Origin: Actinomycetota bacterium
Lineage (GTDB): Bacteria > Actinomycetota > Acidimicrobiia > Acidimicrobiales > Iamiaceae
DNA: 64,000 bases
NCBI GenBank assembly: GCA_019639075.1
Contig: JAHBSO010000003.1
Coordinates: forward strand, 124,001 to 188,000
Direction of reading: 5' to 3'
The notes under the pieces are model-generated. The model made no database searches. It was not told where the DNA came from and was given only the letters and a program-made list of their open reading frames with translations. This document shows, piece by piece, positions 8,964 through 63,301 of this stretch (positions are counted from its first letter, which is position 1; every line of letters starts with the position of its first letter). Position numbers and translations under genes: made by a program.

Positions 8964-9005
8964 GGCGCCGAACCTACCCGTCCGCCACGACCTCCACGAG
9001 GACGT

Positions 9006-9093
9006 CACGGTCGGGGTCGGATCCCGACCGTGATCCGCCCGACCGCCCAGGACCCGCGACGACGAGCACGGTCGGGATCCGACCCCGACCGTG
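9006..9093. repeat. inverted pair of 27-bp hairpin repeats
   Basis: Two 27-base units at 9006-9032 and 9067-9093 are exact reverse complements of each other. Each unit is itself a hairpin: CACGGTCGGG and CCCGACCGTG arms of 10 bases around a 7-base centre. They lie between the GH5 stop (9097) and the M28 promoter (-10 at 8971-8976), so they could act as a terminator for the GH5 transcript. The duplicated inverted arrangement is more like a BIME/REP-type element. No other copy was seen in the window. Confidence 0.85.
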
Positions 9094-9096
9094 ACC

Positions 9097-23556: not shown

Positions 23557-23609
23557 CCCCGCTGACCCCCCTGCCCCCGCTGCCCCCCTGACCCCGCTGA
23601 CCCCTCGAA

Positions 23610-23652
23610 CTGGCGTAGGTGGTGGTGGGTCGGCCACCACCACCTACGCCAG
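23610..23652. repeat. palindromic repeat GGCGTAGGTGGTGG, copy 1
   Basis: Perfect hairpin with 19-base arms (CTGGCGTAGGTGGTGGTGG and complement) and a 5-base loop. It lies between the convergent aminotransferase and alkyl sulfatase genes. A second copy with 22-base arms is at 25673-25721, on the other side of the alkyl sulfatase. Confidence 0.92.
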
Positions 23653-23670
23653 AACGCAACCGCGGTGAGG

Positions 23671-25635
23671 TCAGGGGGTGACGATCGGGAACATCAGCGA
23701 GAAGCGGTCGCACGCCGTCAGGAGCGCGAGGAGCGCGGTGCGGCCGCGGAGGACCTCGACGGTGCCCGCGTCCTCGAGGTCGGACAGCTCGGCCGCACCG
23801 AACACGAGCGCTCCGAACGACGCGTGGTCGGCCCGCAGCACCACGTCGTCGGTCCCTGCGCTTCGACTGCGCTCCGCTGGCGCTCCACTCCGCTCAACGA
23901 ACGAAGGGGGGAGGTGGTGGATCGCCCCGTTGCTGACACCGAACCGCAGGTGCTCGGCCCGGTCGGTGATCGTGACGTCGACCGTCCAGGTGCGGGTGGC
24001 CGCGACGAGCCCGTCGAGACGGACCCCGAGGGCGTCGACGAGCTGGTCGCTGCTGATGGCGGCGACGGTCTCGGCCGACGGGCCGTGCCCCGGCGTCGAC
24101 GGCGGGTGGCCGTGGCGCAGCTCCTGGGCTCCGGTCAGGTAGAAGTCCCGCCACGGAGCGCTCTCGGCCTGGTAGCCGAGCTGCTCGAACGCGTCGGCCT
24201 GCAGCGCCCGGGCCGCCATGTGCTCCGGGTGGGCGAACACCACGTGGCCCACCACCTCGGCCACCCACCGGTAGTCGCCCTCGTCGAAGCTCACCCGGGC
24301 CCGGCGCAGCACCTCGTCGGCCCCGCCCATGTACTCGACGTAGCGCCCGGCGGCCACGGCCGGCGGGTGGGGCTGGAGGTGGGCGGGGTTGCCGTCGAAC
24401 CAACCCAGGTAGCGCTGGTACACGGCCTTGGCGTTGTGGCTGATCGTGCCGTAGTAGCCGCGGAGCGACGGGTCGTCCTCGAGCCCGGCCGGCAACCGGA
24501 GCTGCTCGGCGATCTCGTCCATCGTCAGGCCGTGGTTCGCCAGGCGCAGCACCTGGTCGTGGAGGAACCGGTAGGCGTCGCGCTGGCGGGCCAGGTGGCC
24601 GGCGATGTCGACCGCGCCCCAGCGCGGCCAGTGGTGGCTGGCGAAGGCCACGTCGGTGTCGTCGAGGTAGAGGTCGATCGCCTCCTGGAGGTAGCGGCTC
24701 CAGGCCAGCGAGTCCCGCACCGGTGCGCCCCGAGGCGTGTACACGTTGTGGAGCGTGCAGGTGCAGTTCTCGGCCAGGCACAGCACCCGGTGGTCCGGGA
24801 AGTGGAAGTTCATCTCGGCCGGCGCCTCGGTGTCGGGCGTGACCTGGAAGACCATGCGCACGCCGTCGACGATCAGCTCGGTGCCCGTCTCGGCGATGTC
24901 GACCGTCGGCGCGATCAGACTCTGGTCGGCCAGCAGGGGGATCCCCTTGCCCAGCCCGGCGTCGACGTGACCCCGCGGCCCCTTCGGCAGCAGCGCGCCG
25001 TACATGTAGGACGCCCGCCTGGTCATGGCCACCCCGGCCACGACGTTCTCGCTCACCGCCGCGGCCAGGAAGCCCGCGGGCGCGATCACCGGCACGCGGC
25101 CGGCCACCACGTCGGCCTCGTCGACGATGCCCCGGACGCCGGCGAAGTGGTCGACGTGGCTGTGCGTGTATATCACCGCGGTGACCGGCCGCTCGCCGAG
25201 GTGGTGGTTCACCAGCGCGAGCGCGGCGGCGGCCGTCTGGTTCGAGGTCAACGGATCGATCACGATCCAGCCCTCGGCGCCCGAGACCACGGTCAGGTTG
25301 GCCAGGTCGAACCCCCGGACCTGCCAGAACCCGGGCGCCACCTCGAACAGCCCCGCCTCGGTGTTGCGACGGGCCTGCTCCCACAGCGAGGGGTGCACCT
25401 CCGGCGGCGCGGTCCCATCCCCCTCGTCGAGGAAGGCGTAGGCGCCGTGGTCCCAGACCGGCCAGCCCCCGGGATGGTCGATCGTCGGGAGGTCCGGTCC
25501 GGCGATGCGGCCCCGCCGGGCCCGTTCCCGCTCGTCGTCGGTCAGCGCGAAGTGCGGCGATCGGGCGGCCTGCGCGTTGCGACGGGCGGTCGCGTCGGTC
25601 GCGGCCTTCGGGGAGAGGTCGGGGGCGGCATCCAT
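23671..25635 (-). CDS. alkyl/aryl sulfatase, metallo-beta-lactamase type (SdsA1-like)
   Basis: Alkyl sulfatase of 654 residues. The N-terminal two-thirds is a metallo-beta-lactamase fold with the zinc motif THSHVDHFAG and further ligands in AENCTCTLHN. A helical dimerisation region follows, then a C-terminal SCP2-like lipid-binding domain. The enzyme hydrolyses primary or secondary alkyl sulfates such as SDS. No signal peptide is obvious. In the C-terminal domain a repeat element reads in frame as VERSGAPAERSRSAG (residues 580-594), inserted in a loop after LRFGVSNGAIHHLPPSF. ATG 25635 is preceded by a CAGAAT box at six bases; an in-frame start at 25671 would add 12 residues. Confidence 0.92.
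   Translation of the reverse strand: MDAAPDLSPKAATDATARRNAQAARSPHFALTDDERERARRGRIAGPDLPTIDHPGGWPVWDHGAYAFLDEGDGTAPPEVHPSLWEQARRNTEAGLFEVAPGFWQVRGFDLANLTVVSGAEGWIVIDPLTSNQTAAAALALVNHHLGERPVTAVIYTHSHVDHFAGVRGIVDEADVVAGRVPVIAPAGFLAAAVSENVVAGVAMTRRASYMYGALLPKGPRGHVDAGLGKGIPLLADQSLIAPTVDIAETGTELIVDGVRMVFQVTPDTEAPAEMNFHFPDHRVLCLAENCTCTLHNVYTPRGAPVRDSLAWSRYLQEAIDLYLDDTDVAFASHHWPRWGAVDIAGHLARQRDAYRFLHDQVLRLANHGLTMDEIAEQLRLPAGLEDDPSLRGYYGTISHNAKAVYQRYLGWFDGNPAHLQPHPPAVAAGRYVEYMGGADEVLRRARVSFDEGDYRWVAEVVGHVVFAHPEHMAARALQADAFEQLGYQAESAPWRDFYLTGAQELRHGHPPSTPGHGPSAETVAAISSDQLVDALGVRLDGLVAATRTWTVDVTITDRAEHLRFGVSNGAIHHLPPSFVERSGAPAERSRSAGTDDVVLRADHASFGALVFGAAELSDLEDAGTVEVLRGRTALLALLTACDRFSLMFPIVTP
23861..23900. 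repeat. dispersed GAGCGGAG-type repeat inside a coding region
   Basis: This 40-base segment of the alkyl sulfatase gene is nearly identical to the intergenic repeat at 37589-37624: on the minus strand TTGAGCGGAG-GGAGCGC-AGCGGAGCGCAGTCGAA with two differences. Here it is translated in frame. All other members found in the window lie between genes. Confidence 0.85.
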
Positions 25636-25672
25636 GTCCGGATTCTGCCCGCACTTCAACCCCCACTTCACC

Positions 25673-25721
25673 GTTCTGGCGTAGGTGGTGGTGGGCCAGC
25701 CACCACCACCTACGCCAGAAC
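25673..25721. repeat. palindromic repeat GGCGTAGGTGGTGG, copy 2
   Basis: Perfect hairpin with 22-base arms and a 5-base loop; the inner 19 bases of each arm equal copy 1 at 23610-23652. It lies between the divergent alkyl sulfatase and metal-dependent hydrolase genes, so a terminator role is unlikely. The two copies bracket the alkyl sulfatase gene. Confidence 0.92.
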
Positions 25722-25808
25722 CGTTGGGGGACGGGGGGGACGGGGAGACGGGGGGGGATTCGGGTGGCAGGCCTTGTGTCGGGGCCGATGTTGCCGATCG
25801 GTGACGAC

Positions 25809-37522: not shown

Positions 37523-37626
37523 GACCGAGCGCAGTCACCCCCGCTGCTGGTTGAGCGGAGCGAGCGCCAGACTCCGCCCCCCTGTTGGTTGAGCGGAGCG
37601 GAGCGCTAGCGGAGCGCAGTCGAAAC
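37523..37626. repeat. dispersed repeat cluster, GAGCGGAG family (three units)
   Basis: Three units start with GGTTGAGCGGA at about 37523, 37552 and 37587. The last (37589-37624) is a full palindromic unit nearly identical to the copy embedded in the alkyl sulfatase gene at 23861-23900. The cluster separates the TetR gene from the SOS-controlled HNH gene. Confidence 0.82.
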
Positions 37627-37667: not shown

Positions 37668-37683
37668 TCGAACACGTGTTCGG
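37668..37683 (+). promoter_or_regulatory. LexA-type SOS box
   Basis: TCGAACACGTGTTCGG matches the actinobacterial LexA site TCGAAC-N4-GTTCGA at 15 of its symmetric positions and includes a perfect CGAACACGTGTTCG palindrome. It directly abuts the -10 box TAGACT (37684-37689), seven bases before the ATG of the HNH gene, so LexA binding would block the promoter. Confidence 0.82.
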
Positions 37684-37696
37684 TAGACTGGTGCAC

Positions 37697-39017
37697 ATGA
37701 CGGCGGACGTCAGCGGTGCACCATCCGAGTTCAGCGACCCAGCGGGCACGTTCGCGTCCCTGGCCGCACAGCTCACCGACCTGGCTCCCCTGCTCGACGG
37801 CGCGCTGGCCAACTCGACCCCGGGCGAACGTCAGCACGCGGTCGTCACCCTGTGCGCGGCACTCGACCGCATCGAGGCCGCCGCCGCGACGGTCGCCGGC
37901 GTCTCGGAGGACCGGCTCGACCACCTGCTCGACGGCGCCCGGTCCATGGCCACCTGGATCTGCGCCCGCACCGAGACCGCCCGTCCCCGAGCGCACAGTC
38001 TCCTCGGGTTGCACGGTGCGGTGGAGCGCTTCGATGCCATCGCCGCCGCGTGGCGCACCGGGGTGATCGGCACCGCCAAGGTGAAAGCCATGCTCAAGGC
38101 CGGCTCGGGCCTCGAACCCGAACTGGAACGCGACCAACAGGCCCTGATCGACCACATCGCCCCGCTACGGGTCCTGTCCGCCCAAGCCGTCCTGCGCAAG
38201 TGGCGCCACGCCGTCCTGGCCGACCGCGACCAGTCCCCCGACGACCCGCGACCCACCGACCAACCCGTCAACAGCATCCGGATCGGCTCCGGCGTGAGCG
38301 ACGAGACCATCGCCACCACGATCCTCGACCCGCTCCACGCCGCCGAGTACCGCTCGCTGATCGACGCCGAGATCGACCGACTCTTCCGCACCGGCCACTA
38401 CACCAGCGACGACGGCATGACCCTCGAGGAACGCCGCCTCGACGCCCAACTCGAGCTCATGCGCCGCGGCGCGCTGGTACAGATGGGGTCAGACCCCAAC
38501 TGTGCCGTCGTCGATCCGGGCGAGACTCTCGACGTGCGCACAGTTGGGGTCTGACCCCATCTGTACGAGGCCCTGCGGCACCACCGACGGCACCCCGCTC
38601 GCCCGACAGGACGTCCTCGACACGCTCGCCAACGACCCGGCCGTCACCGCCGTCCTCGGCTTCTACGGCATCACCGGACGCTTCCGACCCGTCGGCGAGA
38701 TCACCACCAACCGCATCGCCTCCGCGCCACAACGCCGCATGCTCAAAGCCAGGGACAACGGCTGCATGTGGCCCGGCTGCGACACCCCCGCCACCCGCAC
38801 CCGAGCCCACCACGAACCCCCGTACGAACAGACGCGGCGAACCACCACCGACCAGCTCGTCTCGCTCTGCCACCACCACCACCGATGTCGCCACGACCAC
38901 GGCTTCACCATCGACCTCACCCCCAACGGCGACCTCACCGTGAAACGACCCGACGGCACACCCCTCCCCACCGAACCACCCGGCCGAAAGCTCCCCCGCC
39001 CGAGACCCGATCGCTAG
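37697..39017 (+). pseudogene. DUF222/13E12-type HNH endonuclease, interrupted by a palindromic element
   Basis: The 5' part (37697-38554) encodes the DUF222 helical domain with AAAATVAGVSEDRLDHLLDG and VKAMLKAGSGLEPELERDQQ. The 3' part, in the +1 frame, encodes the nuclease domain: RMLKARDNGCMWPGCDTPATRTRAHHE and LVSLCHHHHRCRHDHGF (HNH with Cys ligands). Between them lies a 90-base inverted-repeat element (38477-38566) that supplies a TGA in the first frame. The normal linker of this family looks partly lost. The gene is preceded by a LexA box and a TAGACT -10 box, like the DNA-damage-inducible 13E12 genes of mycobacteria. As it stands, the nuclease domain is cut off from the start. Confidence 0.83.
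38477..38566. mobile_element. 90-bp palindromic insertion element (MITE/REP-like)
   Basis: Two exact 29-base inverted arms, 38477-38505 and 38538-38566, begin GTACAGATGGGGTCAGACCC and surround a 32-base centre. Each arm contains the smaller palindrome GGGGTCAGACCCC. The element interrupts the HNH gene and introduces its stop codon. GGGGTCAGACCCC hairpins are characteristic of REP elements mobilised by TnpA-REP (RAYT) transposases; no such transposase gene is in this window. Confidence 0.83.
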
Positions 39018-63078: not shown

Positions 63079-63154
63079 GGTGCCTCGGTGCTCGAACGGA
63101 GGACCGGGTACCAGCAGGCGCGCTCCTAGCAACCGATCCGAGAAGGATGTGGTT

Positions 63155-63200
63155 GGTAGGAGCCATCAGCCCGAAGGCGGTTTCGGCTAGCCCCATAGCC
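63155..63200 (-). promoter_or_regulatory. fluoride riboswitch (crcB motif)
   Basis: The minus strand reads GGCTATGGGGCTAGCC, then GAAACCGCCTTCG, then GGCTGATGGCTCCTACC. It fits the fluoride aptamer consensus GGnGAUGGnGUnC-CC, AACCGCC and CUGAUGnCUCCU. The first stem GGCTA/TAGCC is perfect. The aptamer ends 77 bases before the CLC-F start. Between them an imperfect AACC-CATCC/GGAT-GGTT hairpin may be the expression platform. Confidence 0.87.
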
Positions 63201-63208
63201 GTGTGGTG

Positions 63209-63214
63209 AGCATA
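63209..63214 (-). promoter_or_regulatory. -10 box of the riboswitch-CLC-F transcript
   Basis: TATGCT on the minus strand ends eight bases before the first G of the riboswitch, which fits initiation right at the aptamer. The matching -35 would fall inside the 3' half of the tRNA-Val gene (63225-63301). Confidence 0.55.
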
Positions 63215-63224
63215 CCCGCCGGGG

Positions 63225-63301
63225 TGGTGGGCCATGAGGGAATCGAACCCCCGACCTCCTGCGCGTCATGCAGGCGCTCTAGCCAACTGAGCTAATGGCC
63301 C
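63225..63301 (-). tRNA. tRNA-Val (GAC)
   Basis: A 77-base cloverleaf on the minus strand: GGGCCAT acceptor, GCTC D-stem, anticodon stem CCTGC/GCAGG with loop ATGACGC (anticodon GAC), T-arm GGGGG-TTCGATT-CCCTC and an encoded CCA. Position 37 is G, which is less usual. It lies 24 bases upstream of the fluoride riboswitch on the same strand. Confidence 0.9.

Follow-up and report, generated by a model that had tools for sequence, protein, structure and literature searches.

The window, as we call the whole 64,000-nucleotide stretch of DNA analysed, holds a DUF222-HNH gene that is broken in two by a 90-base palindrome (Table 1). It belongs to a genome, G000 (C1, C7 and so on are its contigs), that is assembled to 2.74 Mb in 28 contigs and is 79% complete. 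DUF222 and the GC content suggest that it is actinobacterial. The arms of the palindrome pair over 29 nucleotides with zero mismatches around the 32-nucleotide centre. Folded as single-stranded DNA, the palindrome reaches -42.2 kcal/mol, against -14.3 +/- 2.3 kcal/mol for 200 dinucleotide shuffles (z -12.2), none of which was equally stable. Pairing and fold bear out the preliminary description, which had claimed two perfect 29-base arms and a 32-base centre. Each arm is a REP hairpin; the two are inverted with respect to each other, share the core GGGGTCAGACCCC and have their cores 61 bp apart. This makes the palindrome a REPIN, the term for non-autonomous mobile elements in which two REP hairpins are joined in inverted orientation. 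Rfam matched no family at 38477-38566. Elsewhere in the window, a fluoride riboswitch (RF01734, 49.8 bits) lies on the minus strand at 63150-63209, beside a tRNA gene at 63228-63301.

Table 1. The interrupted gene, the palindrome and a second element in the window (positions are those of the window).
Feature	Position	Strand	Remarks
Left part of the interrupted DUF222-HNH gene	37697-38554	+	ATG at 37697 chosen as start; ORF 37676-38554
Left 29-nt arm, REP hairpin 1	38477-38505	+	outer arm GTACAGAT, core 38485-38497, inner arm AACTGTGC
90 bp in place of 101 bp	38479-38568		comparison with three G000 paralogues and the G005 relative
32-nt centre	38506-38537		same sequence, in reverse orientation, in the REPIN at C1:134391 of G000
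Right 29-nt arm, REP hairpin 2, inverted copy	38538-38566	-	core 38546-38558
TGA stop within the right core, terminating the left frame	38552-38554	+	reading-frame analysis
Right part: end of DUF222 and putative HNH-like motif	38569-39017	+	open frame 38502-39017, opening GTG inside the element
Second REPIN of the same family, GGGGTCGGATCCC sub-type	9005-9094		between genes

The preliminary description had attributed both a frame change and a stop codon to the palindrome, and both are found: the left ORF ends at the TGA in the right core, and the right half of the gene is open in a different frame. It had also placed the palindrome between the DUF222 and HNH halves, which is incorrect. The element lies inside the C-terminal part of DUF222, because the Pfam DUF222 match in intact paralogues spans the site (residues 58-360 in the C1 paralogue). 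Alone, the two halves (P0001 and P0002) have no Pfam match at E 0.01, and the DUF222 assignment of the broken gene is borrowed from those paralogues, where the match reaches E 9.2e-5 and 0.0017, both under the gathering cut-off; in a same-genus relative it reaches E 3e-8, above the cut-off. The HNH assignment is our own reading of a C...GC...HH...LC..HH pattern that has no library match. The DUF222 half had no relative in the genome_contigs collection. Beside the gene, at 37535-37625, lies an intergenic repeat, TTGAGCGGAGCGAGC...GTCGAAAC; similar stretches seem to occur near the REP loci L081, L082 and L085.

The empty site and a sister locus

What did the gene look like before the element entered it? 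Three paralogues in G000 share 74-82% amino-acid identity with the gene over its DUF222 half, and a same-genus relative shares 58%. In all four relatives examined, the empty site is exactly 101 bp, compared with 90 bp in the window; the REPIN therefore replaced a segment of similar length. The right boundary of that segment is ambiguous, because ACGA occurs in the host too. Alignment with intact homologues had been suggested as a way to find the target site and any deletion. It did yield an element-free site, but not a clean insertion: a clean insertion with target duplication was considered and rejected, no such structure being seen. It is rare for a REPIN insertion to have its empty site known, here from four relatives, and this case bears on the open question of REPIN insertion.

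A second locus carries the same element. The REPIN at C1:134391 shares the spacer of the window REPIN (score 22.5; the null reached at most 10), and the two copies are 89.6% identical over 115 bp, a likeness that takes in 25 bp of the right-hand host flank common to both. Inspected by eye, arms and cores differ symmetrically between the two. The C1:134391 locus is decayed and the left half of the gene is absent there. Since the REPIN and the same host flank occur together at this locus, the insertion must have preceded at least one event that copied the REPIN with its flank, and the sister copy speaks against a recent insertion. The preliminary description had named two findings that would tell against it: the same sequence at this place in other homologues, and a lack of further copies in the genome. 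On the first point the outcome is divided, as C1:134391 does have the REPIN with host flank but the paralogues are empty; on the second, copies are many.

Did the REPIN jump into this gene at all? A gene already interrupted, or a fragment together with its REPIN, might have been copied or converted from another locus, and C1:134391 testifies that such copying of REPIN with 25 bp of host flank happened at least once. Even so, one original insertion into a gene of this kind would still be required, and C1:134391, without the left half of the gene, makes a poorer donor than the copy in the window. Nor do the window halves have an excess of amino-acid changes: codon changes unique to this gene number seven nonsynonymous and 15 synonymous in the DUF222 half, and one and none in the HNH half. 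This pattern argues for recent insertion or continued selection. We give an origin by copying or conversion a minor but real chance, and prefer an insertion into the gene in an ancestor.

A REPIN population in the genome

The core GGGGTCWGACCCC occurs nine times per strand in G000 and not once with a reversed-pattern control. A looser pattern of core plus arms matches 30 sites (control 1), a pattern for the sub-type 91 sites (control 0) and the sub-type core GGGGTCGGATCCC 37+39 sites (control 0+1). Most cores read GGGGTCGG. Altogether there are at least 55 REP or REPIN loci of the family, counted as 60 core clusters minus five isolated arm-less matches (C7:51915, C24:40712, C24:103919, C27:58294 and C25:34808); this number is a lower bound, and the site at C1:389403, for example, lies outside it. 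The genome-wide search that had been proposed for further copies was thus successful, with reversed-pattern controls of 0-1.

These copies have the anatomy of REPINs, as 43 of the 46 core pairs that lie 57-63 bp apart are inverted doublets; the other three are direct pairs inside triple arrays. In 31 of the 46 pairs, every base of the 8-nucleotide outer arms is complementary; the mean is 7.50 of 8, compared with a mean of 5.63 and a maximum of 6.35 in 10,000 trials with shuffled partners, a shuffle that ignores kinship among copies. Pairing within a single REP is perfect in only 3/46 and 6/46 for the two REPs of a doublet. Because the outer arms match those of their partner far above the shuffle, the long hairpin is what is conserved. 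The perfectly matched outer arms are of 17 different types, and descent alone hardly explains so many separate matches. An earlier study, in the part consulted, describes compensatory changes in its REPINs as common (Bertels and Rainey 2011, PMC3116915).

The family is apparently undescribed in this bacterial order, although the class of element is already known. GGGGTCAGACCCC, GGGGTCTGACCCC and GGGGTCGGACCCC appeared in no paper of the literature searched, and the literature on TIRYT, TIRtron, REPtron, REPIN and palindromes gave no paper on such elements in this order; a 2025 survey of REPs, in its accessible part, tables Acidimicrobium ferrooxidans. A 106-bp query had no match in a plasmid collection. 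A different palindromic repeat, TTCTGGCGTAGGTGGTGGTGG and its inverse, lies in the window at 23584-23678 and 25670-25724; it occurs at 17+19 places in the genome (control 0), with many copies paired 26 bp apart.

Where do the copies lie? Outside ORFs in 52 of the 55 loci (88.6% of the examined loci is coding according to a crude codon-usage gene finder), and many loci follow a stop codon at a distance of 0-12 bp, on one flank or on both. The window copy is scored as lying between genes in this count, its own gene being broken; with it included, four of the 55 are intragenic. The other three are in frame, in a membrane-glycosyltransferase-like gene (C22:14949; weak Pfam matches only), an enoyl-CoA hydratase gene (C12:190035) and the tail of an aminotransferase gene (C16:139), and their REPs encode GSDP peptides (ORFs L171 858-2693, L141 1546-2655 and L145 120-1274). 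The window copy differs from these three: its core spacing of 61 bp is not a multiple of three, so translation meets a TGA in the right core and the gene is split. The claim that palindromes in this genome insert into genes stands for the window copy and three further copies, but as the exception in a largely intergenic population. Intragenic REPs have been reported in several other species (PMC3733652, in the portion available). A preference for DUF222-HNH genes was considered and rejected. Two loci, C1:164825 and C28:62209, resembled remnants of such genes (an LCGPHNR tail) without confirmation: tblastn with 22 DUF222-HNH proteins gave a best match of about E 0.02, away from the palindrome, and Pfam gave none.

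Y1 transposases across the order

The preliminary description had suggested a search for a TnpA-REP transposase. None turned up in the 79%-complete assembly of G000, in which no Y1 transposase (PF01797) was found; the mobilising enzyme is thus not seen in this assembly. Nor was a Y1 gene found in this incomplete assembly from which the ends of an IS200/IS605-derived MITE could derive.

Other genomes of the order link core and enzyme. At least ten forward cores (pattern GGGGTCNGAYCCC) are found in 11 of 198 genomes, G000 among them. PF01797 is present in all ten of the other core-rich genomes and in 35 of the 187 remaining ones (Fisher 1.7e-7, computed on non-independent genomes: five of the ten are from one family, with six families in all). 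In a first sample of 61 genomes, only G020, G023, G028, G046 and G049 besides G000 exceeded one GGGGTCWGACCCC core, with 14 to 87 copies, and long Y1 genes occur in each of the five. The converse fails, since several genomes with long Y1 genes, such as G153 and G158, are core-poor. Genomes whose Y1 matches are short and IS200-like (G038, G042, G055 and G058) have 0-2 cores per strand.

Cores stand on both sides of the transposase gene in G046 and G023. Of the 17 long-type loci examined, these two alone have exact cores at a distance of up to about 1.5 kb from the gene; at other long Y1 genes, the terminal inverted repeats contain GGGGTCAG, GGGGTCAAG or unrelated sequence, or no such repeat was found. 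The RAYTs of relatives contain NH-x-H and Y...NP motifs, and all five long proteins tested against NF047646 (REP-associated tyrosine transposase) scored 46-66 bits, under the cut-off of 80. Bac_DnaA_C was recognized in one of seven proteins at E 1e-4, with a second only at 0.22. The G046 transposase has 219 amino acids and no extension. A phmmer search of solved structures with the G023 transposase gave no match at E 0.01.

Could the palindromes instead be immobile, kept by selection behind genes as terminators or mRNA-stabilizing hairpins, with the copy in the DUF222-HNH gene arising by recombination between repeats? The hairpins are very stable and many stand close behind stop codons, as such a role would predict. 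Four observations weigh against it. The doublets have identical cores and a fixed spacing specific to each genome (42 bp in G023 and 56-57 bp in G028, at the places listed). Their outer arms covary between the two REPs and not within each hairpin. Their presence tracks that of Y1 transposases across the order, and one REPIN recurs with its spacer at a second locus. Immobility is accordingly improbable, and a terminator role could in any case be compatible with mobility. Least credible of all is an assembly artefact in which the 90-bp repeat bridged two distinct DUF222-HNH copies: assemblies are known to go wrong at palindromic repeats, and this one is 79% complete in 28 contigs, but the two halves are complementary parts of one gene in the correct order and strand, and the same REPIN-HNH junction occurs independently at C1:134391.

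A proposed mechanism and its relation to known systems

We consider it likely that the REPIN population of G000 is mobilized by a Y1 transposase of the TIRYT kind, and that one member entered the DUF222-HNH gene in an ancestor, at a cost to the gene of about 100 bp. Such a REP-associated Y1 (HUH) transposase, characterized by terminal repeats of the GGGGWSAS type, would fold the single-stranded REPIN and copy or move it, usually into intergenic DNA behind stop codons. Hairpin-templated copying would keep the arms matched. Both the movement as a hairpin and the copying of arms are suggested by published work on TnpA-REP (PMC8266576, as far as its text was available) together with the anatomy seen here. 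When the REPIN entered the gene, the 101 bp may have been lost by an exchange at insertion or by a later deletion beside the palindrome.

A broader proposal is decidedly more tentative: that RAYTs of group 1, or TIRYTs, drive the REPIN populations of an order whose bacteria have high GC and DUF222 genes, with arms kept matched through hairpin copying, to which the symmetric arm differences between the window copy and its sister at C1:134391 would point, and with insertion exchanging a segment of similar length. If true, the spacer length modulo three would decide whether an intragenic copy recodes its gene, as with the GSDP peptides, or severs it. The family itself connects the inverted repeats of TIRYT transposases, with their GGGGWSAS motif, to complete REPIN populations whose arms covary, in a bacterial group where such elements seem undescribed so far.

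How do these elements compare with known ones? The REPINs of Bertels and Rainey (2011, PMC3116915), as the part consulted describes them, share the inverted REP doublets, the less conserved spacer, the long single-strand hairpin and the mostly extragenic location. They differ in the core, which is GGGGTC-n-GAYCCC here and carries GI-GIII motifs in Pseudomonas; in addition, no RAYT was found in the incomplete G000 and the window copy is intragenic. GTAG-tagged REPs and BIMEs, with their RAYTs of groups 2-3, are likewise short palindromes that form doublets and have an HUH transposase as partner (PMC3733652 and PMC8266576, in the sections available), and the former also describes copies within ORFs in several species, as here. 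Assignment to this GTAG type was rejected, as no GTAG or GTGG was seen at the foot of the hairpin when 60 clusters were inspected by eye. The core had been called typical of RAYT-mobilized REPs. That holds in so far as it is linked across the order to RAYT-like Y1 transposases, but its GGGGTCAG fits GGGGWSAS and not the GTAG REPs.

The elements also resemble TIRYTs and TIRtrons, in which inverted repeats with the GGGGWSAS motif flank a RAYT-like HUH gene and some of them overlap the 3' end of the gene (Di Nocera 2013, PMC3733652, available portion); some TIR families form dimers or clusters (same source). The window core has an exact match, GGGGTCAG, to GGGGWSAS; most G000 cores, reading GGGGTCGG, are one base off, and GGGGTCAG or GGGGTCAAG is also present in the TIRs of several related RAYT genes. 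TIRYTs have, in addition, a C-terminal HTH similar to Bac_DnaA_C, which matched at E 1e-4 in one of the seven proteins, as above. The window motif thus fits the TIRYT type, a subclass proposed here from the motif. According to the available text of Quentin 2018 (PMC6006769), TIRYT probably corresponds to subclass 2.1 of TnpA-REP, the vicinity of subclass 2.1 genes yielded no REP-like sequences, and Actinobacteridae have subclass 1.1 only. Here, in contrast, core palindromes stand on both sides of two such genes, and this core also builds up large populations of doublets. Far outside the order, an exact copy of the 25-nucleotide REP pattern lies at 3712-3736 of L182, a single stretch of the genome_contigs collection from the betaproteobacterial MAG contig JAGWPH010000134.1.
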